In this document: positions 29,673-60,504 of the stretch, piece by piece
Layout: each line of letters opens with the position of its first letter
How positions within the stretch are numbered: position 1 is the first letter of the stretch
Assembly: GCA_964017065.1 (NCBI GenBank)
Contig: OZ024791.1
Span: forward strand, 4,082,547 to 4,146,546
DNA length: 64,000 bases
Source of the DNA: Haliclona indistincta
Taxonomy: Eukaryota > Porifera > Demospongiae > Haplosclerida > Chalinidae
Reading direction: 5' to 3'
Translations under genes and position numbers: made by a program
Notes under the pieces: model-generated
What the model was told of the DNA's origin: nothing
The model's input: the letters and a program-made list of their open reading frames with translations, nothing else
Databases searched by the model: none

Positions 29673-31488
29673 CTGTGCATATAATAAGCCCCAGTGGTTT
29701 CTACCCAAAGAGGAGATAGTAAGCATGCATCTGTGACATGTTCTTTGTAAGCAGCAGAAACAATCATGCAAGAGTGTTCAGCGGTTGCTAATACACCAGT
29801 ACTAATTGCCTGAGCGAACCCCATATTCATCGATGATATTGTTTTAAATCACCATAATACGATGGATTTGAGGTATGCAAGGGGCTTAGGAATTCAATGT
29901 TAATATCTATCTGTGCTCAAGAATAGGAAAGTCGCCAGAATCAAGTCAAGTGACAAGTACATTTTGAAAGACAGCAATGCACTCTCACGTCCATTTTAAC
30001 AATACCTATGGTAAAACTGTAGTGAAACCATTGGTATACTAAGTGATGGACCAATCAGGTTGTACAATTGCACTTATCTATTGTATAAAAACTTAAAAGA
30101 CCATAGTCCATGGTAACAACTTTAGTTTGAGAAAATCTTCTAATTGAAGGCATCGACATATTATGCTCACTCATCCAACGTTTCAAAGCGTTTTGAAGGA
30201 GAACTAGTTCAACAACCAACTAGTTTCCATTTGTACAGCCATCTACAAATGCAGACGTGCAAACTTGTTAATTCACCAACTATAATATTACTATGGTGAT
30301 TGGTAAGACAAATACTAGGATACACGGTCAATACTGGCATAGAAGAAAAAAATATTTAAAGGATTTTCCAGTAACAATTCGCTGTGTAGTGTATTTCAAT
30401 GATTTAGGTATGCTGATTTTGCACGACAAGCAAATAAATTTATATGTATTGTGACATGGATATTAAAAGCTTACAGGGTTTGGCATAAGGTCTGGATCAA
30501 TCCGCGCTGATTGTGGTCTAGGTTGAGACTGAACAGGTCCTGCCATTGAAGGAGTTGCCATTCCCGGTGCTGACTGCATGGGTCCTCTTGGAGGAGCATG
30601 CTGACCAGAAAACTGCTGATTAGGGTAACTCATACCAGGTGGAGAAGAATAGCTGCTGCCTCCTGGTTGGCCAGGCATAGGATTCGTAGCTGTATGTGGT
30701 CCCAATGAGACCCCGCTGTTCATTGGAGGAGGACCAACAGACATCCCACTGCTCATTGGAGGAGGACCTACAGACATCCCACTGCTCATTGGAGGAGGAC
30801 CTACAGACATGCCACTGCTCATTGGAGGAGGACCTACAGACATGCCACTGCTCATTGGAGGAGGACCAACAGACATCCCACTGCTCATTGGAGGAGGACC
30901 AAACGAAGGACCACTGTTCATTGGAGGAGGAGCACCAACAGACATGCCACTGCTCATTGGAGGAGGAGGACCAACAGACATCCCACTGCTCATTGGAGGA
31001 CCAAATGAAGCACCACTGTTCATTGGAGGAGGACCCAATGCAGCACCACCGTTCATTGGAGGAGGAGCACCAACGTTCATTGGAGGAGGAGCACCAACAG
31101 ACATACCACTGCTCATTGGAGGAGGACCCAATGCTGCACCACTGTGAGGAGGAGGAGCAACATTATAGAAAGAAGCATGCTGTTGACCACTTGACGGACC
31201 ACCCATTGGCAATTTAGACTGAGAAGGTAGTGGCTGGTATTGGTTAGCAAACAAAGAACCTTGCGAAATGTTTGGTTGAATGCCGGGCTGTGGAACAGCA
31301 CCAGGCTGATAGTGTGCTTGCTGTTGGGGTCTTCCTGTGAGAAACTGAGAGGGCCCGTTAGAGTGGTTGTCAGTGTTTTGAGTGCTTATCGACATATTGC
31401 CCATTTGCTGAGTAGGAAGAGGCTGATGTTGGTATGGTTGGCCTGGTCTCGAAGAAGCCCCATACTGCTGTTGGTTGTAAAACGACAT
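19706..31488 (-). CDS. SEC24C: COPII coat cargo adaptor SEC24 (SEC24C/D type)
   Basis: SEC24 pairs with SEC23 in the inner COPII coat and captures cargo at ER exit sites. Start ATG is 31488; stop is 19706-19708. About 20 exons read. 30475-31488 gives the Pro/Gln/Met-rich N-terminus with tandem 11-residue repeats. About 29434-29553 holds [12 protein letters not shown] and about 29267-29384 holds [14 protein letters not shown]. About 29068-29207 carries the zinc finger (CNRCKTYM … CPICQC) and 27400-27513 holds [17 protein letters not shown]. Trunk exons run from 27.3 to 26.1 kb; beta-barrel and helical exons from 25.5 to 23.2 kb ([30 protein letters not shown]). The gelsolin-like exons are near 21.5 and 21.1 kb, and the last exon (19706-19853) ends [18 protein letters not shown]. 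That last motif favours SEC24C/D over SEC24A/B. Introns contain a 599-bp MITE, a fold-back element and an (AC)n tract. Confidence 0.93.
22380..22978. mobile_element. 599-bp MITE with ~90-bp terminal inverted repeats in a SEC24 intron
   Basis: The left end CAAGAGTAAATAATAGAAGA runs about 90 bp and recurs inverted at the right end, ending 22978, with only a few mismatches. The arms include CGGGAAAGTAACGTGACCAG. A 7-bp direct repeat TTTTTAC lies on both sides (22373-22379 and 22979-22985). The interior has CpG-rich segments and a TGACGTCA palindrome. No transposase is encoded. The superfamily is not assignable from a 7-bp duplication alone. Confidence 0.75.
28502..28760. repeat. fold-back inverted repeat in a SEC24 intron
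   Basis: The left arm (28502 to about 28624, starting ATGCAAGAGATTTAGGGTTG) matches the right arm (about 28654-28760) inverted at roughly nine positions in ten. The left arm has a 17-bp insertion absent from the right arm. The loop is about 30 bp. Transcribed as part of the SEC24 pre-mRNA it would form a hairpin of about 105 bp. It lies between the zinc-finger exon and the exon at 27400-27513. Confidence 0.7.
29619..29670. repeat. (AC)n microsatellite
   Basis: Uninterrupted AC dinucleotide run of 26 units in the first SEC24 intron, preceded by shorter CA/CATA runs at 29585-29610. It creates apparent poly-Cys-Val frames on the minus strand that are not genes. Confidence 0.97.
30710..31105 (-). 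repeat. in-frame 33-bp coding minisatellite in SEC24
   Basis: About a dozen copies of an 11-codon unit encode [11 protein letters not shown] and close variants (PPPMNSG…) in the disordered N-terminal region. Five near-identical units stand in a row (about 30720-30900), followed by more variable ones. Unit length is a multiple of three, so copy number can change without breaking the frame. The opposite strand is also open through this region, but this is a by-product. Confidence 0.9.
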
Positions 31489-31745: not shown

Positions 31746-34700
31746 ATGGCGTGCTTCTGCTCTTGCATATGGGGTAATCCAGATCCTGGACCTATCCGAC
31801 TGAAGGATGTACAGCAGGTTGTGTTGGATACAAGTAGAATGGGTGAGCAGATAATTTATTAAGGCTTATTTAAAGTACATTCATTCATGATTATGCATTA
31901 TTATTATGTATTTTTTTATTATAATTATACAGGTGTAGATTGTGTCGTAGTCAAGTGTGGCCGTAGGATATGTGGTACAGGAGGTGCTCTTGCAAATGCT
32001 CCTATTGTACAAGATAAGAGCTACTTTGAAGTTAAAATACAGTGTGGAGGTTGGTTGAAAAAATATCCCAATAGATTTTGATACAATAATTTATTATTAT
32101 ATATACCTCAGTATTTTGATTGGCCAAATTGCTTTGCAGACGTCAAACAGACAATCAGCATAACCTAGATAAGTTTGTTTATTTAGCTGTGTAGCTGTTT
32201 GAGACAGCAAAGCCCTAACAGTGCTATACATGTGAACTCACACCTCATTTCGCAGCTGCTGTATTTTTACTTATATTTACATACTAGGCAATGTACTTGG
32301 AGTACTTGATGTTATTTGTATAAGCTTATACTGATTACATTTATCTACAATTCCCTTGATAACAGTCTCCAAAACCCAAGGAAACAAGAATTATATCATT
32401 GTTAGAATATTTTTATCGGGTACCTTTCTGAATTCTTATAAAAAGCTTGGAAACCTCAGTACATGTACTTACAAGAAATTAAAAAGATTTCTATCGAAAT
32501 CAAAAGGATGTAGTGATGAAGAAATCTCCACTGGTTCACAATGTAAACCAACAAGGAACAAGCATAGAATGGTAACACGATTGACTTGCTAACAGACCAT
32601 AGATCCCTACATCAGTGGCTGCTGTGGCCAGACTATAGCTAGTTAAGCTATTTACTGTTGACTGACACTTTGAATTGAATTCAGCTTGTGACAAAATATT
32701 GATCTTATGTACAGCCACTGATGTAGGGATCTATGGTCTGTTAGCAAGTCAATCGTGTTACCATTCTATGCTTGTTCCTTGTTGGTTTACATTGTGAACC
32801 AGTGGAGATTTCTTCATCACTACATCCTTTTGATTTCGATAGAAATCTTTTTAATTTCTTGTTTGTGTCCTTTTTTCTTTTTAGTGAAGTGCAGTTCAAT
32901 ATCATGCATGTACGAAGAAGTCTTTGTTTCCACCGACAAGCTAATTTAATATGACGTATAGACACGCCCACTACAAGGGAATGTAGGAATGGAATGTAAG
33001 TAGAATAGTTTAAACAGTTTGCCATCGCGCTATAGTACATGATATCGAGCTCAAGTGTGCATTGTTTACACTCCAGGTCAAGGCAAGTAATATTCCAGAA
33101 CAATCTACTGAAAAATGAAAATAGCTGAAACAAGATTTCTGCTGTTACAGTGATTGGACAACATTTTGTGCGTATTGCAGCCAGAGTTTGTGCGCCACAG
33201 CCGAAATTTCTTTACATTATTAACCGAATGATGCTCTAGAATGATAGCAATGCTGTTTTGATCACGTTGGTGCTTTCTTGGGTGAATAATTTTGCCAACC
33301 AATTCTTTATCTTCAGCTCTCTGTACTGCAAAAACTAAAAGAGGTACGGGTGGGGTACGGTAGCGTAAACGAAAGGTCTTGGGCAGTAGAATCCATTTAG
33401 CAACTTACTTACCTGTCAAATTGTCCTCTAAAGGCGTAGCAGACCAGGAAAGACGCAATGTATTCTGGTTTACTAAATCATTGAGGCTACGTGACGCAAC
33501 GTCAGCATTACGTCAGAATAAATTAGCTTGATCGTACCCCCCCTGCATGCTTGCAGTGCATACGAGCCCCGCCCACACTTGTTTGTAGACGGTTATAATT
33601 ATCTGGCAAGTGCAGAATGGCGATCCTACACGAGCTTACCGTTCTTCGAAGACTCCAGACAAATGCCGGGTGTGTGTTCTCCGTGATAGTGATCCACACG
33701 GCGCAGCGATACTTTAGCTGCTTTTACCCATTGCTTGGTCACGTGCGTATTGCGCAATCACAATAATGGCGTCTAACACTAAGCTGACAATGGATCACGA
33801 TCGAGAAATCGCGAAACTTAGATCGCCGTTACGCTAAAAACAAAGCTCAAAAGGCACATGCCAGGAGAATTTCACGACTGTTCGTGGATGTTTTGGTCTC
33901 GGCACTGCTCGCGTAAAGGCGCTAGGCGAGTGGAAGAAAGAAAGAAAGAAAGAAAACGAAGATGACGAAACTCGATTTTCACCGTTTCCAGGTTCGTCAC
34001 TTTAGTAACAATTTCGAGCAATCTCCTTGCTACTGTAAGATGGGGCAACGCCAGAGAGCAGATCTAAGTGTCTAAAGACGTATAAAATTCAACACCAGGC
34101 GAAATATCAGCGTTTGAACGCTAATACATTGTATGTAGCCGCCATCTTGTTTTCTCGTTCATCCCTACATAGGGAGTCACTACCGTGCCTCCCTAATATT
34201 TAAGTACAAACCTCAGTACATGTAAATCCATTGGCAACATGGTTGTATTTTCTGAAAGTACTCGTACTTTACAAAATGTACTTAAGTACACTTGTTAGTA
34301 CCATACAAGACAAGTCTGTGAAGGTTAACTGTTTGGTCATGTCGCTGCTGCTGACACTCAGAAGCCTGCTTGAATTTGTGTACCAAACGTGAACTTTAAC
34401 AGCCCTGAGACAGCAGCAAACAGCACAGTAAGCAAGAAGCTGGTCACCATAGATTTGTCTTGGATAGCACTAACAAGGTTATGCTATTGGCGCTGCTTTG
34501 CTGGGGACTCAGGCCTGTACTGCTTTGCTGGGGGTTCAGGCCTGTGCTGCTTTGCTGGGGGCTCAGGCCTGTGTTGGAGCCATTGTCAATCATGAAGTTC
34601 TTGGCTGCCAAGGGGTGTAACCTCATAATGTGAGCTTGAAATAAAAATGGACGAATCTTTTGGCATTTTAATTGATTCTGAATGAGATGAGAGTTCACAC

Positions 34701-37700
34701 CGAAGGCATATAATAGCTAAATAGTTGCATGTGCATGGTTAGCTTGTACAAAGCATTTCGTTTTATCACTATGATCACAGGGTTGATGGCATATTATCAG
34801 TAATCAGCTGCTCTCAGCCCTGAGATTTTGCATAGCATTGTTATTGAACTATCTTTTATTGATATCATTAGGTATTTGGGGTGTAGGAGTAGCCACGCCA
34901 ACAGTGCAAGTGGACACTGTTCCATTAGGTGGAGACAGCAACAGTTGGGTACTTACTTCTGAAGGAACTGGTCTGCATAACGGACAAGTTGTCTCAAGAG
35001 TCAGGCAAGGACAGCAACTTCCAGTTGAGGGAGACATTATTGTGAGCACAGTTTACTCTGATTCTAATGACCTGCTACCATTCCTTGTTCTATTTTCTGT
35101 TAATTTGTTTACCATTTTAGTTGTTGCTACTCTTTTTTTTGAGCCTGCCATAATATTGTAGTGGGAAGTTTGCAAGAGAAAAGTTTTACAAATGCGCAAA
35201 ATAGAGTCAGAGCATACCACTAGACCTCCAGCCAATCGGATCGCTCAAAACGTGTTACCTGCCAGCGCATTATTGAGTGTTTATAGTGCAATTATTGTTT
35301 TCCATTATCAACATCACACTCACTCCAAGTGGTGTGTCCCGGGCAACGTATACTAATGCGGCTAACATACCAGCAATCTCAATCGTATCTAAGAGAGACT
35401 GTCGAAAGCTATAAACCTGTCAGCGGATAGTAGCAACTGAGAGAAAGCCAGCGTTCTAAAAGAACCCTGTTGTAGAAGCAGAATCAAATGGTGTACGGCC
35501 CTTGATGCTGTGCTGTTACTTACTAGAGATAAGAGCCGGGAAAGTTGTGTGCGGGGCGGGGCTATGGGAAGCGGATGATGCCTGTGACGCCAAAAACGTT
35601 GGGGCCCTGGCCAGTCAGTATAATAAGATAGTTGGGACTGAAGTGATGGCGAAAGCCACCAAAGTGATGCAACAAACTGAGCCTACCAATGGCCAACCCG
35701 AAATAATCATTACCAGTGAGCCTCAAGATCCTGAACTGATGGAAACCTCAGTGGAGAACAGTACTTCCCAGTACTTTCTCATACTGGGAAACAGACTCTC
35801 TCGAGGCTAAACTGCCTAGTGTACGCTGGAGAGCTGAAGAAATTCCCTGGAAGGCAAAGCCAAAGACAGAGTACGAAGAAAGGGAAGCTGAGATCAGGCA
35901 ATTAAGGAAAACAGTGGGGTGAATACAATCTGACTTAGCTAAGTGGAAGTCAGGTGGAAGACTTACCTCCAAACAAAAGAAGATAAGGTGTGTGATATCT
36001 AAGCTGGACGGCTCAAAGTCAAGGCAACATCTGAAAGTGTTCCTGCAAACACTGAGGGACTTGCTGAGAGTGAGAGTCAACAGGCAAGAAGACACAAGGC
36101 TGCGATAAGGCGTAAAGATATCAATGCCAGGTATAGGCGAGATGGCACTAAGGTGCTAGGAGGAAATGCAAAGCAAGAAGGAGGAAATACAAACCCCACT
36201 GAAGCTGAGGTAAAGAGTACTGGGGGACTGTTAGAAGTCCCAGAGAGGTATAATGTAGACGACCAGGCCATCCAGCCAGGACAAAGAGGACGGCCCGCTG
36301 TGGTATGAGATCTTTGATGTTGTGAGAAAAAGAGCGAAGAACTGAAAGGCTGCCCGGAAAGTGTTCCCTAGATCAGCACACAACCAGTGGCAGATGATCA
36401 AACTGATGATCAAGGGAAAGAAAATTCCATAGTGGCTAGTGAAAGAAAGGACAATCTTAATCCCTAAAGAAGGGTGCAAAAGGAAGCCTGACTGGTACCA
36501 ACCGAGCACAGTGCTGAACACTGCGTATAAGTTGTTCACTGGGTCCTCACGGTAGTGCTGCAGCAGCACGTGATGGAAAAAGACATCCTCCCAGTGGAGC
36601 AGAAGGCCCTGAGAAAGGGGCGCAGAGGATGCTATGACGCTCTTATGGTGGACGCCATGGTCATGGAGTATGCACAGGACAATCATTTCGATCTCTCTGT
36701 GGCCTCTTCTGATCTCTTTGTCGACAGGACATCAGAGACAACGGGCATGACAATGGGATTGAGGAAGTGTGCAGTAGTGCATATGCGAAAAGGAAAGAGC
36801 CGAGGTGGTGTGGATCTCAGCTCTCAGGGGACATAGAAGTAACGTGCCTAGAGAGTGAAGAGTGATATAGATACCTGGGGGTGATGTAGTTCTTTGACCT
36901 GAAGTTGAAGGTGGTGAAGAAACAGTTGAGGGAAGAATATTTGAGACTTGTTGGGGAATTGTGGTCCTCTGAGCTGAGCACTAGGTGAATGCAACAAACT
37001 CTTGGGCAGTAGCACTGTTTTGCTATTTTTACGATGGTATCGGAGGCAGCTAATGATCCTACATAGAGACACACGCGTGCTACACTGACGGAGCCAGCGA
37101 GCGTGTCCTTCGCCGAAAGGTACGGGTAATCTTGGCAGCCTCCGTTGTGCTGGGGATAGATGGTTGCAATTATTGATCTTGAACGAGGAATTCCTAGTAA
37201 GCGCGAGTCACTAGCTCGCATTGATTACGTCCCTGCCCTTTGTACATACCGCCCGTCGCTACTACCGATTGGATGGCTTATTGAGATCTCTGCCGGCGCA
37301 GTCTTCACGGTCTGCGTTGGATGGGGAGAAGTCGCTCTAAATAAGCTCTCTAGAGGAAGTAAAAGTCTTGGGGAAGGGATAGTTGGTTACCTTCAAGTGG
37401 TCTTCCCCGGGCAACGGTTACCTGAGCGATAAGGTAGGTGGCAGAAACCAACTCAATGAATTGTGGTTAATAATTGTTCAGATTTGTCTGTAGGGTGAAT
37501 GTGAAAAGTTGAGCACGGAAAGTGCATTACTAGTGACTAGTTGGCGAGTTACTGAGTACTAAATGGATCATTGAAAGAAAGTTGTCAGGCTGATATTGGT
37601 GCCATATCAGCAATCTAAGGTATATAAAGTGAGCAAAAGCAATAAACCTGTCAGTCGGACAGTTGCAAGACAAGGGAGCAAGCGTTCTAATAGAACACTC

Positions 37701-40700
37701 ACTTGAGGAGGCATTGACTGAAACAAGTGAGCTATCAAGGGCAGTGAAGTAGAGTCTTACTCTATCTATAAACTCCCTTGAATCTAATCCCAAGTCCAAC
37801 AGAATGTCGCAAGACAAAGACTACTAGGGGATTAGACTGAGTTGTGGACACACCGAGAGCGGAGGCAGAATCAAATGGTGTACAGCCCTTGATGCTGTGC
37901 TGATACAAGCGAGAGACAAGAGCCGGGAAAGCTGTGCTATGGGGTATGGGAAGCGGTGGGTGGACCACTGGAACAGGATGATGCCCGAGACACCCAAAAC
38001 GCTAGGGGCCCTGGCCAGTAGGTATAGGAAGATAATAGGGACAGAACTGATGGTGAAAGCCACAAGGCCGTTAGAGAAACCTGAACCATCCAATGTCCCC
38101 CAAGAAACTGCTATAAGTGAGGCTCAAGACCCAGAACAGACAGAAGCCTTGGTGGAGAGTATCAAAGATGAGTTAAGAGAACAGTTCCTCTCGGTGCTCA
38201 GGAGACTCTGAGTTCTGAGTTTGGTGAATTCTCCGAGAGGGTGAGACCATACCTGAAAGGGAAACTGGTGAGCCAAAAAAAAACTACAAGCTATTGATGA
38301 ACTGGTCACAGAAGAGTATAGTGTTGGAAACAGTCACTCTGGAGACTCAACTGCCTTGTGTACACAGGAGCAGTGATAATGGCTGGAGAGGTAAGTTCCC
38401 TGGAAGGCAAAGCAAGAGTAAGAGTATGGAGAAGAGGGAGGCCGAGATCAGACAGATAAGAAAAAAGGTGGGGTGGATACAATCCGAACTAGCTAAGCAG
38501 AAGTCAAGCGGGAGACTAACACCCAAGCAAAGGAAGATAAGACATATTGTGTGTAAACTGTGTGGCTCAAAGTCAGGACGACGTCTGAAAGTGTTTCTCC
38601 AAACACAGAAATACATATTGAGAGTGAAGGTTGAACAGGTAAGGAGACACAAGACAGTTGAAGGTGTAAAGAGATCAGATGGTGTTAAGGTGCTTGGGAA
38701 AAAAGCGAAGCTGGTAGGAGGGAATACAAACCCCACTGAAACAGAGATAAAAGAGTACTGGGGGACTGTTAGAAGTCCCTGGGAGCTATAATGAAAATGA
38801 CCAGGCAGTCCAGGATTGGATGGAAAGTCTACAATACCTGGACCAAGACACAGGAGAATATCTGCTGGGAGATGAGATCTTTGAAGTAAGGAGGAAAAAA
38901 GCAAAAAAGCTGGAAGGCAGCTGGTAGAGATGGCATATGTGCATATTGGTGGAAAGTCTTCCCTAGAGCAGCACACAAATTGTGGGAAAAGATCAAGCAA
39001 ATGATGGGAAGAAAATTCCGGAGTGGCTAGTGAAAGGGAGGACAGTCCTAATTCCCAAAGAAGGGTGCAAGGGGAAACCTGACCAGTACCGACCTATCAC
39101 AGTGCTGAACACTGCGTACAGCTGTTCACGAGAGTCCTCACTGTTGTACTGCAGCAACATGTGATGGAGAATAATATCCTCCCAGTAGAACAAAAAGCAC
39201 TGCGGAAAGGACGCAGGGGATGTTATGACGCTCTTATGGTGGACGCCATGATCACTGAGTATGCCAGAGACAAGCAATTAACTCTCAGTGGCATTGATAG
39301 ACTATCAGAAAGCCTATGACCGGGCCCCTCACGGTTGGCTACAACTGGTCACTGGTCTTGGAGAAAATCCGAGCACCAAGGAGCGTTCAGAAGTGCATCC
39401 GCCGGTTGAACGAAAGTGGAAAACGGATTTTAGTGCTGGTGACAAGAAGGTAGTCGGAGTGGACCTCACCCTGAAAAGAGGACTTGTTTCATTGGGACCA
39501 CCTCTGCTGTTCTGCCTAAGTATACTACCCTTATCGCATGCACTAAGAGAGAATGGAGAGGGATTCAAAGAGTATGGGCTAGAAATACCTATTACTCATC
39601 TACTCTTCATGGATGACCTCAAGGTGTATGCAAAGGGTAAAGCAGACCTCTCCAAAGTGGTGAGGCTGGTGGACAGAACATCGGAGGAAATGGGCATGAC
39701 GATGGGATTGAGGAAGTGTGCTGTTGCGCATATGCGGAATGGAAAAAGCCAAACAGGGCTAGATCTCATGCTCCCAGGGGACAGGCAAGCCTGGACAGTG
39801 AAGATACCTGGATCATATAGATACCTGGGGGTGATGCAGCTCTTTGATCCGAAACTGAGGACAGTGAAGAAACAATTGAAAGAGGAATATCTGAGACGTG
39901 TAGGGGAAGTGTGGTCCACTGAGCTGAGCTCTAGGCATAAGGTGAACGCAACGGACACCTTGGCTGTAGCACTGTTCCGCTACTTCTTTCCATGTATAAG
40001 GTGGTATAGGAGGCCGCTAATGATCCTAGATAGAGACACACACGATCAGTATTGAGGGGCTTTAAGTGCCAACATAGAAATGCAGCCCTAGAGAGAGTGT
40101 ATCTGCCAAGAAAAGAAGGAGGACAAGGACTCCATAGACTGACCCACATGTGGGAGAGAGAAGTGGTGTCAGCAGCGTTGTATTTGGTAAGGATGGCAGA
40201 AATGGATGGGCACCTTAGGGCAGTGCATGAACACCAACTAGAAATGAAAGCCCAAAGGGAATACACAGTACTAGGAGAAACGGGGAAAATACTGGAAGAA
40301 CACAAGGTGGAGACAGTGCTCAGTCCACAGGTAGAGCATAAACAGGTAATAAACTGGCTGAAAGAGGTCCGAATGGATGGAATGAGGAAAAGCCTAGAGC
40401 AAAAATCCCGACACAGTAAGTACTGGAAATGGAGCCTGAGACGAGAGATGGACACAGAAATGTGCCACCTGTGGCTAAGGAATGGTAGGCTCCAAGCAGA
40501 GACTGAGGCCTTCATAATAGCTATGCAGGATGGCGTACTGTACACTAGAGAATAGAATACAGGGCCAATATCCTGCACAAGTCCTGGACGAAGGTTTGTA
40601 GACTTTGTGAGGTGAAGATAGAATCAACAAAACACATCCTATCTCACTGTCCCAACCTAATGTGAACAAGTTACAAGGAGCGCCACAACCGGGTGGCAAC

Positions 40701-43219
40701 ACACCTAATGAAAACTCCGGCTAAGAAATTTGAAATCCCAGTGCCTGATAAGCCCATGCTGGGTGGACAAGCAAAGACTCTAATAATGGAGAACCAAAAG
40801 GCAAAAATCCTAGTAGACTATATAGTACCTACTGATGGGAAGATAGACTATCGCAGACCAGATGTAACAGTCTACATAAAAAGCCATAGAAGGGTTGAGG
40901 TGTTTGAAGTTGCAGTTGCATGGGATGAAGGATTGTGTGACAGGGAAAAGCAAAAGAAGCAGAAGTATCTCCCGTTGTGTGCAGATCTAAGCTGCCAGAA
41001 TAGGGGGTGGAAAGTCAGCACGAGACCAATAGTTATCGGGTGTATGGGCTCAATTGCAAGGGCAAGAGAGATGCTCAGAGATACAAAAATCTTTACCGAA
41101 CAAGAGGTAAACAGCCTCATAAGGGAGATGCAAATGGAGGCCCTGGTCTCAGCTGTCAGAATAATGAGACATCAGCTATACATTTGAGGGGAACGAGGCC
41201 AGGAGAGTATGGGGTGTATGGGCTCAATTGCAAGGGCAGGAGAGAATCTCCGCTACTTCCGCTACTTTTTTCCAAGTATGCGGTGGTACAGGAGACCATT
41301 AATGATCCTAGACTGAGATACACGGTCTGTGTTGAGGGGCTTTCCACTAGACTTCCAGCCAATCAGATCACTCAAAACAAGTTACCTGTCAGCGCATTAT
41401 ATCGCATAATGCACACTTTTCTGCACACTTTTCTAAATAATAATTTTAGCTGATCTTAAATTTCGTGATTTGAACGAGCATAGTACAAGCTGATTTATTT
41501 TTTTCTGCTATAGAAATTGCAAGGGTTGAAAGCTACTCATTTCATGACCAAATGCTCTAATAGATTTCTATGCAGGCCGTCCATGTTCATATTATTAACG
41601 CCTTGGTCATCATTGCTATTTCTATCAAAATGGCACTCAATAACCATATCGACACAATCATTTTTATTGCTTTGGCCATGCATTCAATCATAGATACAGT
41701 ATCCCTTAAACTGATTCATAAAGGCGCCGCCAGTGGTCTAAATGTCATAGAGCGCACTCGTCATTTCATAGAGCACTGGAGGCGGGGCCACGGGCAGCAA
41801 TTGTTCGTGTAGCGATCGACTGCGGGGTAGTTTCTGGAAGGTCACACTTTAAACCCGTTAAAGCACTGCATCTCGTGCTCTATGGCGTATGATTGCACTC
41901 GGGACATGTCTCGACGACAAATAGAGCACTCGCCTTTGGCTCATGCTCTATTTGCCTCTCACCACGCCCCTCGTGCAATTATACGCCATAGAACACTCGA
42001 CACTGTGCTTTAACTAGTACAGAATACTGTTTCAATTGTGCTGGAGACTTCTACACAGCAGAATTAACCAGTTACCAATTTGGTATGTGACTTAGAAGTC
42101 TCTTAGGAAGATAACTGCTACCTGGGTAACAACACTAGCTTGTGGCATTGTTATAGCTGCAATATTAGCCGCAGTTTGGGCGTGTTATTTTATAGCACAG
42201 CTAACTTTGTACATCATTTCTATGACAGTAACCATTTTAAATTTGGCCGATTTATGGTGTTAGCGACATAAGAACTTACCTGTTGCATGGTGTGTGTATG
42301 TATGTTAGCTGAATCAACTACAGCATTGAGTGAAGGTCAAAGAAGCAGTGTGGTGTGGTGTTTCAGAAAAAGAGACAATAAGCTTGAAGCGATCTTATCA
42401 TCTACATTATGTTGCATGTATTGTGTCACATGTTTGATAGAACTACTACATTGTATTATGTTATAGTATGTAGTATAAACCAGCAATGCTACAGGTGTGC
42501 TCTCTCAAGAGAAGTAACACCAATCAATTGTAATTGTATAACAAAAGAATTGTAACCAGCAGTAGACTTGATGGTGTAGTAATATTGTTTTAGACACATT
42601 AGTGTATTGATAACTAGCATCTGTTCTCTCTCCATTCTAGGGCATCAGCTATGATCATGTAGACCTTAACTTTTTTCTGAATGGAAGTCACTAGATTGCC
42701 CAATAACAGGCGTCAGAGGGACAGTATATCCAGTTTTTTATGGTAAGTTTCTATCAAGCTTTTTATACAGTACCTCTAATGCGCCTATCAATGTCACGCC
42801 CCATCGCCCCAACACGGGGGTGAGGTGGGGCAATGTGGGGATCTGCACTTGTGGTTTTACAAATGTCCCAGGGGTGGGGAGCAACTGGCTTGCAAATCCC
42901 CTACATATCCCCCACTTGGCCCTACTGGTGCACAGTACAAACAGGAACACTGCTACATGTCCGGATTTTGTATGTTTACTGAAAAATATGAACGTGTCAA
43001 ATGCCCCACCCCTCGGGCAGCAAACGGCTGGCATTTCCCCATGTAACCCCCACCCTACCCTAAGGTGGGGCATGACATTGATAGGCACATAATGTTAAAG
43101 TATGAACCTCTATCGCACGCTGGTAGTATTAGAAGCACACACAGGTTTTTGCACAATAGGAATTAAATTTTAATTTCTTCTCTTTCAATAGTGATGACTG
43201 GTGCATATTCTTGATGTAC
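31746..43219 (+). CDS. SPRYD7: SPRY-domain protein SPRYD7, 3' part frame-disrupted and cut by gap
   Basis: Small cytosolic single-SPRY protein of unknown biochemical role. Exon 1 is 31746-31842 (MACFCSCIWGNPDPGPIRLK), exon 2 31933-32049 (VVVKCGRRICGTGGALANAP), exon 3 34872-35041 (GIWGVGVATPTVQVDTVPLG) and exon 4 42641-42742 (GISYDHVDLNFFLNG). Phases join, but exon 4 hits TAG just after FLNGSH. The adjacent frame resumes the expected LDCPITGVRGTVYPVFY, so one base appears to be missing near 42684. Exon 5 starts at 43192 and also does not read in one frame before the N run at 43220. Intron 2 carries a perfect 151-bp inverted repeat; intron 3 is enlarged to 7.6 kb by LINE/18S material. Sequencing error beside a gap and real decay are both possible. 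Confidence 0.85.
32471..32862. repeat. perfect 151-bp inverted repeat with 90-bp loop
   Basis: The left arm 32471-32621 (starting ACAAGAAATTAAAAAGATTT) and the right arm 32712-32862 are exact reverse complements by eye. The 90-bp spacer is unrelated sequence. It lies in SPRYD7 intron 2. No target duplication or transposase was found. The perfect match implies a very recent origin or active homogenisation. A transcript crossing it would form a 151-bp duplex. Confidence 0.9.
32863..34492. other. SPRYD7 intron 2 sequence, no gene recognised
   Basis: About 1.6 kb with a locally higher GC content around 33330-34190. It includes a GAAA simple repeat at about 33934-33955. Short frames beginning MAILHELTVLRR (33618) and MASNTKLTMD (33766) have no recognised homology and no splice context. 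I cannot assign a function. Confidence 0.35.
34493..34573. repeat. 27-bp tandem repeat, three copies
   Basis: Three consecutive copies of a unit beginning CTGCTTTGCTGGGG and ending CAGGCCTGT, differing at two or three positions. Located in SPRYD7 intron 2, about 300 bp before exon 3. The unit length is a multiple of three, which opens frames on both strands. Confidence 0.85.
35217..35273 (+). repeat. 57-bp direct repeat, left copy flanking the LINE block
   Basis: Begins CCACTAGACCTCCAGCCAAT and ends AGCGCATTAT. The right copy at 41344-41400 has the same length and orientation and differs at six positions, five of them transitions, with CpG-to-TpG/CpA changes in the right copy. The pair brackets the LINE/18S composite. 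Confidence 0.8.
35330..37071 (+). mobile_element. LINE copy A (restriction-like endonuclease class), internally deleted
   Basis: Matches copy B from its 5' leader (shared CCCGGGCAACG, ATAAACCTGTCAG, GCGTTCTAA) through the N-terminal coding region to the RT thumb. The catalytic RT core is missing: the text jumps from the CTCTTATGGTGGACGCCATG segment (about 36642) to the region after the FMDD motif (about 36720). Several stops and frame changes are present. It ends at about 37071, at GATCCTACATAGAGACACA, where 18S rRNA sequence begins abruptly. Non-functional. Confidence 0.8.
37072..37367 (+). rRNA. 18S rRNA 3'-region fragment (pseudo), embedded between LINE copies
   Basis: Starts within the universally conserved CTACACTGACGGAGCCA segment and includes GTGCTGGGGATAGA, GAACGAGGAATTCCTAG, the TTGATTACGTCCCTGCCC block and the CCGCCCGTCGCTACTACCG decoding-site sequence. 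It stops at GAGGAAGTAAAAGTC, just before the GTAACAAGG that normally follows in 18S. About 296 nt are colinear with the 18S 3' domain, with scattered substitutions (for example TTGTACATACC). It is not a functional rRNA gene: both ends are truncated and joined to LINE sequence. Confidence 0.93.
38920..40070 (+). pseudogene. LINE reverse transcriptase, decayed
   Basis: Contains a finger block (PEWLVKGRTVLIPKEGCKGK, then DQYRPITVLNTAY), IDYQKAYDRAPHGWL at the first catalytic Asp region and LLFMDDLKVYAKG at the FMDD catalytic pair. GMTMGLRKCAVAHM and YRYLGVMQLFDP follow. The stretch that should hold the QGD-type motif is degenerate and the frame changes at least twice (near 39000 and 39130-39290), so it cannot be made as one protein. 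Confidence 0.85.
40693..41187 (+). CDS. LINE C-terminal restriction-like (PD-(D/E)XK) endonuclease domain, open fragment
   Basis: A 164-codon open stretch. The hallmark is RRPDVTVY followed about ten residues later by VEVFEVAV, giving the PD … E-x-A/V core of the R2-type endonuclease fold. A Lys-rich helix (DREKQKKQKYLPL) and the family's VIGCMGSI-like block follow. It nicks target DNA to prime reverse transcription in active elements. It has no start of its own: it is the downstream part of the LINE polyprotein, separated from the RT part by stops near 40550 and 40665. It would not be expressed as a normal gene. Confidence 0.75.
   Translation: MATHLMKTPAKKFEIPVPDKPMLGGQAKTLIMENQKAKILVDYIVPTDGKIDYRRPDVTVYIKSHRRVEVFEVAVAWDEGLCDREKQKKQKYLPLCADLSCQNRGWKVSTRPIVIGCMGSIARAREMLRDTKIFTEQEVNSLIREMQMEALVSAVRIMRHQLYI
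41259..41343 (+). mobile_element. LINE fragment C (repeat of the RT-thumb segment)
   Basis: About 85 bp matching 39978-40065 of copy B (CGCTACTT…CCAAGTATGCGGTGGTA…AATGATCCTAGA…TGAGGGGCTTT). It stands directly before the right 57-bp direct repeat. Copy A is cut within the same segment. It indicates template switching or rearrangement at this spot. Confidence 0.75.
41344..41400 (+). repeat. 57-bp direct repeat, right copy
   Basis: Starts CCACTAGACTTCCAGCCAAT and ends AGCGCATTAT. Equal in length and orientation to 35217-35273, with six differences. It immediately follows LINE fragment C. Confidence 0.8.
41401..42640. other. SPRYD7 intron 3, right part
   Basis: About 1.2 kb between the LINE composite and exon 4. 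It contains one hairpin element (41857-42015). Upstream of it are CATAGAGC-type motifs (41744-41780) resembling decayed copies of the same element. No exon is recognised. A polypyrimidine tract and AG precede exon 4 at 42641. Confidence 0.4.
41857..42015. mobile_element. 159-bp hairpin MITE in SPRYD7 intron 3
   Basis: GTTAAAGCACTG at the left pairs with the inverted right end (…GTGCTTTAAC). The arms continue through CGTG-CTCTATGGCGTAT with few mismatches. A small central loop contains AAATAGAGCACTCG and its inverse. No coding capacity. Confidence 0.65.
42780..43089. mobile_element. 310-bp PIF/Harbinger-like MITE
   Basis: The termini TGCGCCTATCAATGTCACGC and (inverted) TGTGCCTATCAATGTCATGC extend about 25 bp. 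TAA flanks both sides (42777-42779 and 43090-43092), the 3-bp TWA duplication expected of PIF/Harbinger elements. The interior is GC-rich with CCCCAC runs on both strands, which open spurious frames. It sits between SPRYD7 exons 4 and 5. Confidence 0.8.
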
Positions 43220-50395: not shown

Positions 50396-53300
50396 TCAGA
50401 TCTCACAGTAAGCTTGATAAAGAGTAGGATGCATCCCATGCTGATAAAGTATGAAAACCTGACATCCTGCAGGAAGAAAGAGCACGTCTCCTTTACTGCA
50501 CTCTTGCTCATCGATCAACTTATTTTCAACAGTCAGTCTTATTTTACATACACCATCCATTAAAATAATAATGCTTGGTCCTTTTACAACAGGAACTTTC
50601 AGTTCGCCATCGCCATCAGATGAGGGACATTGAATATGTGCAACTGTAAACTCAGGAGCTGGTGGGTCGTACACAGAAATGTTTTCATTCATTGGGTGTG
50701 GCTTAGGATAGAATATGTTTTCAGCTGCTGACTTGGTAGAATAAGTCAACATGTTGCAAAGAGTGTCTTTGTCACGAAACTTTGGAGTAAGTCCAGCACG
50801 TACGACATTGTCCCCACATGCCATGCATTCCAAACATTCTACAGTAAAAAAAACAATAATAGTTAGTAGTACATGTACATGTAAACATGACTAGTATACT
50901 GGAGCAGACATTGAATATTGGCCATTGATTAGGATATTCGTACATGTAGTTAATGACTAATTTAGGTACAGATATAATATGCTACTTTTGTGTTGTCAAA
51001 AATTAATGTCTGAACACTATTGAGCTTCTTGTTTTCATGACTGTTACATGGCCCACTTCTGACTCGAATAAGCGAAAATAAAACCACCTACAGTTACGAC
51101 AAATTTTAATGATACATGCACACCATCAAGTGGCTTAGTACATTTAATACTATTCTAGAGAATTTTCTCATTGACTTTAAAAGCTGCTACTGTCAATTTT
51201 ACTGCCTTCCTTAGTCTGCCAGTGACTGTGTCTAGTGTGTCTACTGGTTGCAATGAAGCATACCAGCGCCATTCCTTGCTACTATAATCAGATACACTGT
51301 ATTAATCGTTTTAACAAATTCCATCAAATAATGACCACACAAAGTACTACTACCATTGCTGGCTATGAAACAGCATCGCTGATTTGCCAGTGACTTTCAG
51401 TAAAATCTACAAAGTGCAAAGGTAATCTCAGGAACGTTGTGTACCAGGTTTCCCATTCTCAATGTGCAAGTCTAGATCCAAATGAGCTCCAGTTTCACCA
51501 CCAAAGCAGCTTCATTGTAAAACAACAGCACTTGTTGTTGACGAATATTGGAGGTATGATTAATGAGTTCTTAGATTGTAGTTTTTACGGGGAGACTTAA
51601 TTATTATGGATTTCGCTACAAACAGTTACACACTCTTTCAGCCAATGTGTTCCTGGTATCAATACAAAATCCTCTTTTCTCATTAGTTACAGTATAGACA
51701 CCTTGCAGTGCCCAATCAACAACAAGCGTTAAAGGTACTGACAAGCACTCTCGGCACATTGTACCATAATCACTATAATCAGCTCACCTCCGAAAATGTA
51801 TGCATGTGGTTCATTGGGAGCAAGGTATAAGGCTTGACCAGGTTCTAACTGAAGGAAATTCAGAAAGAATACACACAAACACCCAACATCACCAGGGAAC
51901 CAGTTATACAGTTTTAGCAGCAATTCTGTGTCTTGAGTAGGCACATCTAAATAAAAAACAATAAAAGATACATTCTCTGTGATAACTAGTACATTCATGG
52001 AATGGCAGGGGCGAGCCTTTTTGTGCTATAATGTTAATATTAATTTTAACAGCGCTAATGGGTTTGTTGATGGTGAATAGTTTAGTTATGTTCAGATTAT
52101 GGTGCACTTTCTCCAGCTATCTCTTGCTGAGTGTGTTCCTTGCCTAGGCGTCATGGGAACAATGTACCTGGAACAACTGAAAGATGTGATGAGTAGGGTT
52201 CCTCGGTCTCCTCACTCACTGCAGGCTCTACTGCTAACACACACGAGCTCATTAGACGTACCTAAGTTACTGTTTGCTCTGTTGCAGCTACTGCTTTCCG
52301 CCGGCGTCTCCGGTAGGCCCTTTTGATATTCCTTTTGTCGCTCCAGTCGTCCGCTTTCACGTTGATAGGGTGACTCTGCCTCTCGTCGTCGCTTTCTGGT
52401 AGCGGCCTTGTCGTGTAAAGTTGTTGCTTTTCAGGTGTCTCTGATCTCTGTTGTTGTCGTCCCTGAGTCATCTGCATCATTGCCAGAATGCCAGGTATCT
52501 TGTTTGAAACCAAGCGCCAATTATAATGTGCGCACGTGCTAAAAGGGCGTTTCCTACTTCTCGGGAACATTGAAAAGGACAAACGCTACCCCATGACAGA
52601 TAGATTGATAGATACATACATTCCCCGCCGCATGGGCCATTGTGCCAATCAATGTGGGGCTCGCTCAGGCTCGCCCCAATAAGTACAGTCACCCGATCCG
52701 TTTGGCATTACAGTGTTTAGTTCTCGTTTATACAGTTGTAACTTTCTTCACGAACATTGGATCGACTTGGAACTTTAATCGATCGATTCTAGCGCCTATC
52801 TCTCACCTAGATCTTCAGATTTTGAATTGGTAAGTTGAGTAATTTTTTCACATCAACCGTTCTAATTCTTCGCAGGGCTGTTTCGGCCGCTGAATTCTGG
52901 CCGTTGAATTCTGGCACCATTTCTCGATCTCTACAGCGACGCTCTTACTTGTGGCTGCTTGAAGACTTGTAGTGTTGTAAAGAGATTGTCTGCTGAACAC
53001 GTTAGTTCTTGTTCAAATCAAGTGCGTGCTACCGTTTTTATTCTATAAGCGAAAAGAGAAAGTAAGGCTAGAGGGGCTATTTCAACAATTGAAATCACGT
53101 TCCAATTGGATTTGTACGTGGAGTCGGAATAGCTCCGGGTGACTGTAGTGATGGACTCAAACTATAGGTGAAACAGGAGTGTATAACGGGAAGGAGCATC
53201 CAACTCGGTAAAATAATAGCGAGCCACAAAGCACAAAGAAAGGGCTTAGTTCCCAACTTTAGTTTGGTTATTACCATACGGGATACGAGAGTTAGACGCT

Positions 53301-55124: not shown

Positions 55125-55237
55125 CTCCCGCCATGCAACTAAGCATGCACACACCCAACATGCACCCAGGACATGCACTTCACTCATAGTGTGTCAGGGC
55201 TGCTGTGCACGCCACTGTAACGCATATAATCATCACA
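55125..55237 (-). repeat. split direct repeat B2 (113 bp)
   Basis: Identical by eye to B1 at 55780-55892. Begins CTCCCGCCATGCAACTAAGC on the plus strand and ends ATAATCATCACA. It forms the 3' end of the element. Confidence 0.9.
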
Positions 55238-55625
55238 ACACTTTACAACCAACCACACAATCACAACGACACCAATGAGCTGGGGCCACCTAAACGCACA
55301 AATTAAATTTATGATTAGCGCGGCCCAACGCTAATCAAGGGAAAAACCCAGAGAGACCTAAAGCTTTTTGAGAAAAACTCTGGGAAAACCCATTACTGAT
55401 GTCAGCTCAAGAAAAACACAACTGAACTACTCTACTAGTTCAAGATTCTCTTTGTTGCTTCTCTGGAACCAATCTGGATATAGATATAGAGAACATTTTG
55501 GACAACAAACACCAACACTAGTACACTACAGTACTACTACAAAACATCCGTTCTCAGTTTCTTGATCCTGGAACGATCTGATAAATAGCCGAGGTAATAA
55601 CTTCAGAAGGGGGCGGGTGGGTGGG

Positions 55626-55779
55626 AATTAACAGAGTGGCGAAATGCACAACCCTAGAATGACTGCATTAACTAATCCACACCTTAAATACCCTACCACA
55701 CCATGACATCATGCTACGTCATGCATTGTCGGGAGCATATTTTCCGTCTAATTACTTCGTAAAACGACACAAAATATAT
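55626..55779 (-). repeat. split direct repeat A2 (154 bp)
   Basis: Identical by eye to A1 at 60351-60504. Begins AATTAACAGAGTGGCGAAAT on the plus strand. It abuts B1 with no intervening base, recreating the A-B circle junction expected of a circular intermediate. Confidence 0.92.
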
Positions 55780-55892
55780 CTCCCGCCATGCAACTAAGCA
55801 TGCACACACCCAACATGCACCCAGGACATGCACTTCACTCATAGTGTGTCAGGGCTGCTGTGCACGCCACTGTAACGCATATAATCATCACA
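55780..55892 (-). repeat. split direct repeat B1 (113 bp)
   Basis: Directly adjacent to A2. Same sequence as B2 at 55125-55237. Confidence 0.92.
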
Positions 55893-55929
55893 CTAGAGTC
55901 TAACAAAGAGCGGGTTTGTAACAATTTAA

Positions 55930-56622
55930 GACCTTTGGACACTGCATGCTAGGCGTGCTCCAACTGAGTCCTCCACCTAGCCCAGTTCCGGCTGAGCAGT
56001 CTCCGATTTCCACCTGCCGTGGCACTTACTTAGCCTGTCCGGAACACCCGCTGCAGCTGCAGCAGTAGCTCCCCGTGCTCTCAGGCTATGTAGCCCGAAC
56101 TGGCTACGGTCGTAACCAAGCTGGTCTAGTTTAGCGAGGAAACCTCGCGCATTCGGGTGTAGTAGACCGCCTGAGGGACGTAGGCGTTCCCCTTTTCCAG
56201 AGTGGTCACACCCCTAAAGATGTGGAGCTCGGACGAGCTCGGAGGACTGTTTGCAGCAGTCACATATTTCTCTAGCATAGCCACTGGACAAGTGTCGTTA
56301 CTTTTCCTAGCGACTAGAACGGTGTCTCCTTGTCTGTACTGGTCCATTTTACTCGATACATTGTGGACGGACATGGCTGATTCCGTGAATCGACCATGTC
56401 GCAGGCAGCATCTCAGCTTAGCTAATTCGTCGATGCGGAGGAATGCTGCAAAAGCCAGCAACGCGCTCGCTGCCAAACGGATATCAGACAGTTAGGGGAG
56501 GACCCTAAGCTTTCTACCATGCTTTTCAGCATCTCCACGGTCATTGGCTCTTTTCGAACTTTTGGGCGAGCTAGCATTGTCTCCCATACTCCTGGCCCTG
56601 ACAATATATCTGAAAAAGGCAT
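55930..56622 (-). pseudogene. tyrosine recombinase of the DIRS/PAT/Ngaro-like element, broken
   Basis: Would integrate the circular DNA form. Visible parts: RKEPMTVEMLKSMVESLG (56622-56500 region), then in another frame AASALLAFAAFLRIDELAKL, with the first catalytic Arg in RIDEL (about 56430). After a second frame change near 56140 comes LHSLRARGATAAAAAGVPDR, with the H-x-x-R box (His codon 56090-56088), then HGRWKSETA. Where the family has its nucleophilic tyrosine shortly after this block the codon is TAG (55979-55977), and the same frame continues with VEDS-type sequence. The N-terminal DNA-binding part is missing or replaced by the minisatellite. Inactive as it stands. Confidence 0.85.
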
Positions 56623-56764
56623 TACTGCTCCATTACATATACATTTTGCTTGCTAAGATAACTGTACACACTTTACCCGATACTATACTCGACTCTAGCT
56701 GCATTACAACTCTGATTAGTCAGCCTATACATCGGAATGTTAGATAGGACCCATATACCCATGT

Positions 56765-57175
56765 TACGGCCATCAGATGGCTACACTCCAGCCACTGGGT
56801 GGCTACGTACAAGCCATTGGATGGCTACCACCAGCCATCAGATGGCTACAGCTACACACCAGCCATCGGATGGCTATACAGTATACACAAGCCATCAGAT
56901 GGCTACAGCTACACACCAGCCACCAGATGGCTACAGCTACACACCAGCCACAAGATGGCTACAGCTACACACCAGCCATCGGATGGCTATACAGTATACA
57001 CAAGCCATCAGATGGCTACGCACCAGCCACCAGATGGCTACAGCTACACACCAGCCATCGGATGGCTACAGCTACACACCAGCCATCGGATGGCTATATA
57101 GCATACACAAGCCATCAGATGGCTACGTACCAGCCATCGGATGGCTACACACTAGTCATCGAATGACTATAATAC
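56765..57175. repeat. palindromic minisatellite (AGCCATC-R-GATGGCT units)
   Basis: About fifteen units, each centred on the near-perfect palindrome AGCCATCRGATGGCT. They are separated by short spacers of two kinds: ACAGCTACACACC, and ATACAGTATACACA which is itself palindromic. Units alternate in a higher-order pattern. Because the units contain no stop codons, all three plus-strand frames stay open over several hundred bases. It lies between the RT and recombinase regions of the retrotransposon. Confidence 0.92.
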
Positions 57176-57305
57176 ATAGCTAAGATCATGCATGATTGCA
57201 GTCCAATCATCTGCTAGCTACCCAATGAACACCCACCAACTACCATGTGCTTATTTATTTTGATTTATAGTGTTGCAACAAACTGCCCATGCATACTGGT
57301 GCTGC

Positions 57306-60302: not shown

Positions 60303-60350
60303 GAAAATGAAGTAGTACTCGACAAAATCGTATAAGTGAATTTGCAGATA

Positions 60351-60504
60351 AATTAACAGAGTGGCGAAATGCACAACCCTAGAATGACTGCATTAACTAA
60401 TCCACACCTTAAATACCCTACCACACCATGACATCATGCTACGTCATGCATTGTCGGGAGCATATTTTCCGTCTAATTACTTCGTAAAACGACACAAAAT
60501 ATAT
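60351..60504 (-). repeat. split direct repeat A1 (154 bp)
   Basis: 5' end of the retrotransposon. Identical by eye to A2. The Gag-RT start codon lies 49 bp inside. It may contain the element's promoter. Confidence 0.92.

Follow-up and report, generated by a model that had tools for sequence, protein, structure and literature searches.

How does a fragment of an 18S ribosomal RNA (rRNA) gene come to lie directly against the 5'-end of a dead long interspersed nuclear element (LINE)? The question is raised by a 64,000-nucleotide stretch of the genome of the sponge Haliclona indistincta (contig OZ024791.1, here C9, positions 4,082,547 to 4,146,546; hereafter the window), in which the 3' part of an 18S gene (37072..37369, + strand) runs up to the insertion point of LINE copy B (37370..41214, + strand). 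The initial annotation of the window proposed that LINEs of this kind, bearing a restriction-like endonuclease, insert into 18S genes, and that copy B moved here carrying 18S sequence by co-transcription or 5' transduction. We searched the whole assembly (144 Mb, 46 contigs), in which the window is G000:C9:4082547-4146546, for further joints between such LINEs and 18S.

The 18S fragment itself was readily confirmed. A eukaryotic small-subunit (SSU) rRNA match at 37036-37228 (E 3.6e-27) is the sole Rfam match above the gathering threshold in the window, and from 37072 to the LINE edge the sequence is colinear, as had been claimed, with the host genome's own 18S genes (94% identity by BLAST). 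Compared to the intact gene, 37072-37369 lacks 8 nt in a single deletion and has 11 substitutions, of which eight are C>T or G>A. At its end the window reads AAAAGTC-TT where the intact gene reads AAAAGTC-GT, the G of GTCGT having mutated to T at 37368. Since AAAAGTC-TT stands for AAAAGTC-GT, the 18S part reaches 37369 and not 37367, 2 nt past the end first given; the claim of a precise joint to the LINE 5'-end stands as a native junction, with that shift in its position.

An 18S query of 1701 bases returned eight DNA matches: six full genes on C9 (3.757-3.947 Mb), the piece in the window and, on C6, a stretch of 43 nt. One of the six assembled genes (L007) runs into N near the site, leaving five that are readable, and four of these five are interrupted at the site by a LINE of this group, in line with the insertion into 18S that the annotation had supposed; the fifth (L041) is empty. 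L037 holds an element that we call family I, and L038 and L039 hold full-length copies of a family II that are 99.9% identical to each other. The open frames of families I and II are 1156 and 1178 codons long, and the reverse transcriptase (RT), a CCHC knuckle and a PD-(D/E)XK endonuclease lie within one open reading frame (ORF). The proposed restriction-like endonuclease type is borne out by the motif residues and by matches to R2 structures.

L037, L038 and L039 have a common 5' boundary, indicating repeated insertion at one rDNA nucleotide, and it is the same upstream boundary that copy B has in the window. This bears on the possibility that an 18S fragment and a LINE were brought together in the window by chance or by misassembly. 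The evidence comes from assembled sequence, and copies A, B and C of the LINE are scrambled around the joint. However, the identical boundary at three full-length LINE insertions in 18S on the same contig excludes a chance junction, and an artefact of either kind is exceedingly improbable unless the array itself is misassembled; the junction of 18S and copy B is native.

The downstream side of the site was examined through the 18S tail TAACAAGG..., which is found at eight places on C9 (pattern control, 0). One of the eight is the empty gene and seven are preceded by other sequence, with AAGTAAAAGTCG directly before the tail in six of the seven and a shorter form of AAGTAAAAGTCG in the seventh, L030. 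One of the seven is L035 (4.068 Mb), where a family-I-like copy has the 18S tail, 5.8S and the start of 28S. Two more of them, the 18S tails at L036 (C9:4309737) and L030 (C9:3809984), follow sequence unlike families I and II; L036 also has the duplication AAGTAAAAGTCG, and we regard both as further insertions at the same 18S site. The upstream 18S pattern was mostly matched by chance at one mismatch (15 hits, control 13), and only the four exact hits and those on C9 were used. A 5S rRNA gene lies near a C9 18S gene (L042:6236-6354), and 5S thus seems linked to the rDNA array.

The flanks of the full-length copies define the target. At L037-L039 the upstream flank ends in AAGTAAAAGTCGT, followed by GGGG, and the downstream flank begins with AAGTAAAAGTCGT again, before AACAAGG; all three copies are flanked by a (G)AAGTAAAAGTCGT duplication. 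From these alignments the insertion site is AAAAGTCGT/AACAAGG. The T at the boundary could be assigned to either 18S or the element, and we gave it to 18S because the predicted ribozyme described below starts at the first G; the duplication is then 13 bp in family I and 14 bp in family II. The site after AAAAGTC, as originally placed, was 2 nt off and is corrected accordingly.

Copy B is dead, with many stops and frameshifts and without its 3' end. Its DNA is 67-69% identical to family I, and its broken frame matches the family I protein piecewise over residues 3-1154. The longest open stretch (39282..40055, + strand; 257 codons) lies mid reverse transcriptase, and the back half has two stops over residues 773-1154. 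The CCHC knuckle and restriction-like endonuclease residues (CRLC...H...C; RRPDV...FEVAVAWD...KQKY; 40597..40968, + strand) are retained, CCHC and PD...E...K falling in one reading frame with one stop, and the endonuclease motif aligns to that of the R2 structures.

The first nucleotides of copy B (37370..37452, + strand) point to a further feature, a fold like that of the hepatitis delta virus (HDV) ribozyme, which is common to families I and II; the Rfam match is to HDV-F-prausnitzii. The first 83-101 nt or so of copy B, family I and family II can form an HDV-like double pseudoknot, and in all three P1 starts 2 nt past AAAAGTC. In copy B the predicted stems are P1 (GGGGAAG/CTTCCCC), P2 (GTTGGT/ACCAAC), P3 (ACC/GGT) and P4, and family I likewise has P1-P4. 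In an alignment of eight sequences, seven of them distinct (copy B, families I and II, and copies on C4), 85.6% of cells pair, compared to 32-54% when the alignment was slid, a value reached by 1 of 500 shuffles. On sequence grounds, the weight of the ribozyme evidence is the position of the fold at the 18S boundary in three diverged elements. By analogy with R2, a ribozyme fold at that boundary predicts release of the element from an 18S co-transcript. Other ribozyme-model hits of the window are weak, one at 50708-50770 (E 0.19) and one to a ribozyme remnant at the 5'-end of copy A (E 1.3).

We therefore read copy B as the body of a dead LINE and the 18S piece as its upstream target flank, the LINE belonging to a site-specific, 18S-targeting group with a restriction-like endonuclease and the site AAAAGTCGT/AACAAGG; from the sequence comparisons we give this reading a probability of nearly nine in ten. 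The element would be transcribed jointly with the 18S gene, and the ribozyme would free its RNA exactly at the 18S boundary. The protein would then make a bottom-strand nick immediately ahead of AAGTAAAAGTCGT, or one base before that point, and prime reverse transcription there, and a top-strand nick 13-14 bp further on would give rise to the duplication. Copy B would later have come to stand outside the array, most likely as an orphaned, eroded piece of rDNA.

Several observations weigh against this reading. The evidence consists of assembled contigs. The fourth interrupted gene, L040, holds a family II copy with parts missing and a different 5' joint. Four partial I-like 5'-ends on C4 (L083-L086) are not preceded by 18S, which shows that some copies lie outside 18S. 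As for the ribozyme, the best Rfam match of each of the three stretches is an HDV ribozyme, and all three fall below the gathering threshold (E 0.032 for copy B, then 0.18 and 0.87). The count of pairs changed on both sides was reached by 52 of 500 shuffles, and two slid versions scored above the covariation score of 0.145. In the C4 copies P1 has decayed, and the P4 of family II is different. The plain fold energy of the copy B 5'-end is ordinary, with 23 of 200 shuffles as good, and the fold descriptor by itself is common: six simulated strands gave 5-10 hits per 64 kb, and the two strands of the window gave 12 and 14.

How copy B left the array is a separate matter. The array ends about 170 kb upstream of copy B, and closer to it, at some 51 kb upstream, the same strand has a remnant rDNA unit containing a LINE. 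Orphaned, eroded rDNA is the origin that we favor by a little, as somewhat likelier than 5' transduction, although Rfam and BLAST found no other rDNA within the window, which counts against it. In 5' transduction, reverse transcription of an uncut 18S-LINE co-transcript at a new site would have continued through copy B and some 300 nt into 18S, and the end would have been joined to copy A over CACG; this rival concerns the exit of copy B from the array and not 18S targeting. It would account for the colinearity of the 18S piece, for its exact end at the native joint and the short match at the opposite end, and for decay of the 18S piece similar to that of the back half of copy B, as if the two had arrived together, though a relic would look alike. 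On the other hand, the predicted ribozyme would be expected to remove the 18S part, the unit has no visible duplication around it, the missing 3' end of copy B makes its joint unreadable, and the nearby array and rDNA remnant are unexpected for a random new site. We consider 5' transduction possible but doubtful. The origin by co-transcription or 5' transduction first proposed for copy B is matched at least equally by a relic of the rDNA array at the DNA level.

The neighbors of copy B belong to the same family. Copy A (35321..37075, + strand) is decayed and 79-88% identical to copy B in blocks; where it joins the 18S piece, the two share the four letters CACG. Scraps C (41193..41343, + strand), downstream, are 84.5% and 82% identical to parts of copy B. 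A target duplication around the unit A-18S-B-C was sought and rejected, the end of A and the start of C being only 73.5% identical over 68 columns. Similar stretches that flank the unit (about 35218-35275 and 41343-41400) belong to a dispersed repeat and are not a unit duplication; at up to two mismatches, the core pattern of this repeat was matched 35 times across the genome (control, 0).

Copies are also found away from the array. A protein search of the genome, which scored 40 of 343 candidates, yielded at least 50 matches, the majority of them interrupted by stops; they lie on C9, C4 and C3, apart from four distant ones on other contigs. Both C3 and C4 have family-II-like 3'-ends with some 22 nt of 18S-like sequence; they have shared flanks past the 18S stretch and were therefore counted as one event. 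A repeated segment on C4 (L008-L013) combines a scrap of the LINE frame with some 27 nt of 18S-like sequence, after which come a short spacer and a ribozyme-like stretch whose P1 is decayed.

Other features of the window stand apart from the rDNA question. Within 55125-60504, an RT frame (57306-60392) also gives a sub-threshold match to Dam methylase. Identical direct repeats lie on either side of it (55626-55779 with 60351-60504, and 55125-55237 with 55780-55892), in an arrangement resembling that of DIRS/Ngaro-type elements. Tandem 33-nt repeats at 30658-31167 lie within an open frame for a proline- and methionine-rich protein, a perfect 151-nt inverted repeat with 90 nt between its arms lies at 32471-32862, and the window has one glypican match, which points to an animal host.

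To which LINEs are families I and II related? A protein search returned 33 proteins, of which P0001 is 100% identical to family I over 83% of its length and P0002-P0024 are 27-49% identical, all of these being unnamed proteins. A profile search also returned 33, with 20 already in the close set or tail of the protein search and the rest mostly other RTs. Four eukaryote-like contigs in bacterial bins encode relatives at 22-29% identity (L073-L076); L073, L074 and L075 contain 28S, and L076 has no rRNA match. In L073 the element is bracketed by a 13-14 bp duplication, (A)GTGACGCGCATGA; the contig of L074 starts inside the (A)GTGACGCGCATGA stretch, with the upstream copy out of view, and L075 is elsewhere in 28S. 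An HDV-like 5'-end seen by eye in L073 was supported by neither Rfam nor the descriptor. The eukaryotic-type 28S with LINEs in L073-L075 is filed under an uncultured cyanobacterium and Mucilaginibacter, so these bins hold foreign contigs. Among viral contigs, the 18S-ribozyme pattern gave three hits, none with surrounding 18S, and no relatives were confirmed among 65 stretches.

We placed the elements in an RT tree of 36 rows and 441 columns, which left out P0001, P0029 and P0031-P0044 and holds no named R4 or R8 row. Families I and II and P0002 form one clade (100/100) within a group of 20 rows (95/94, drawn open). L073-L075 (100/99) are next nearest with weak support (82/56). Two R2 rows, together with P0030, stand apart from the whole 29-row group in which I and II lie (97/99), and the branches of L076 and P0030 are long. 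In this RT tree, the group of families I and II is not R2. The 28S-inserted relatives and the target duplication lead us to guess that the family is R4-like, a guess made with no named R4 sequence in the comparison.

On balance, we lean towards a lineage outside R2 and R8 that took 18S independently at AAAAGTCGT/AACAAGG, with a ribozyme cutting exactly at the boundary and most of the assembled host 18S genes interrupted. If this is true, the host's ribosomes would depend on a few intact 18S copies, and, provided that the assembly is correct, four interrupted genes out of five readable ones raise the matter of ribosome production in this host. In the literature passages at hand, 18S targeting by this type of LINE is reported for R8 alone. 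Were a second 18S group of separate descent confirmed, the target would have been won more than once. In the two families the frames are open, the site and the duplication are defined, and the ribozyme cut is predicted.

R8 of Hydra is the obvious system for comparison. The available passages describe it as an 18S element of this endonuclease type (PMC5035012, PMC3636483, PMC7650587), and those of PMC5035012 place it inside R2, in the R2A clade. Like families I and II, it is a restriction-like-endonuclease LINE in 18S; R8 is also apparently grouped with target-duplicating elements in the passages of PMC3636483, and the closest solved structures to I and II are R2 proteins. That our elements are R8 or its lineage is nevertheless improbable: I and II lie apart from the two R2 rows, R8 itself not being among the rows of the tree, and one simple search pattern for the CCHH zinc finger, an N-terminal feature of the R2 clade, was unmatched within the first 380 residues of either. 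Among the matches listed in the literature passages searched, no 18S element of this endonuclease type was found outside R2, and the site may stand in Repbase or in the original R8 or R4 papers. The listed targets of NeSL-related elements are 28S and tRNA, with the term 18S absent from the text portions of PMC4640811.

R2 provides the closest solved structures to families I and II and has an HDV-like ribozyme at the 5'-end, as is predicted for these families, which in Drosophila cuts at the exact joint according to the excerpted text of PMC3774820; R2 differs in that it inserts in 28S, and I and II group elsewhere in the RT tree. The R2-homologous elements of sponges are likewise animal LINEs of this endonuclease type, and the excerpts of PMC13188248 give them a predicted Myb domain, class them as non-site-specific and lack the term 18S, unlike our elements. 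Family I has three confident helices at 42-104, which may be Myb-like in the model. L073-L075 and the R4 clade are, like I and II, single-ORF LINEs with a restriction-like endonuclease; L073-L075 differ in their 28S target and are only 27-29% identical to the group of I and II. The duplication that R4 makes at its 28S site is 13 bp. Target duplication by R4 elements, which is noted in the passages of PMC3636483, is a further likeness to families I and II.
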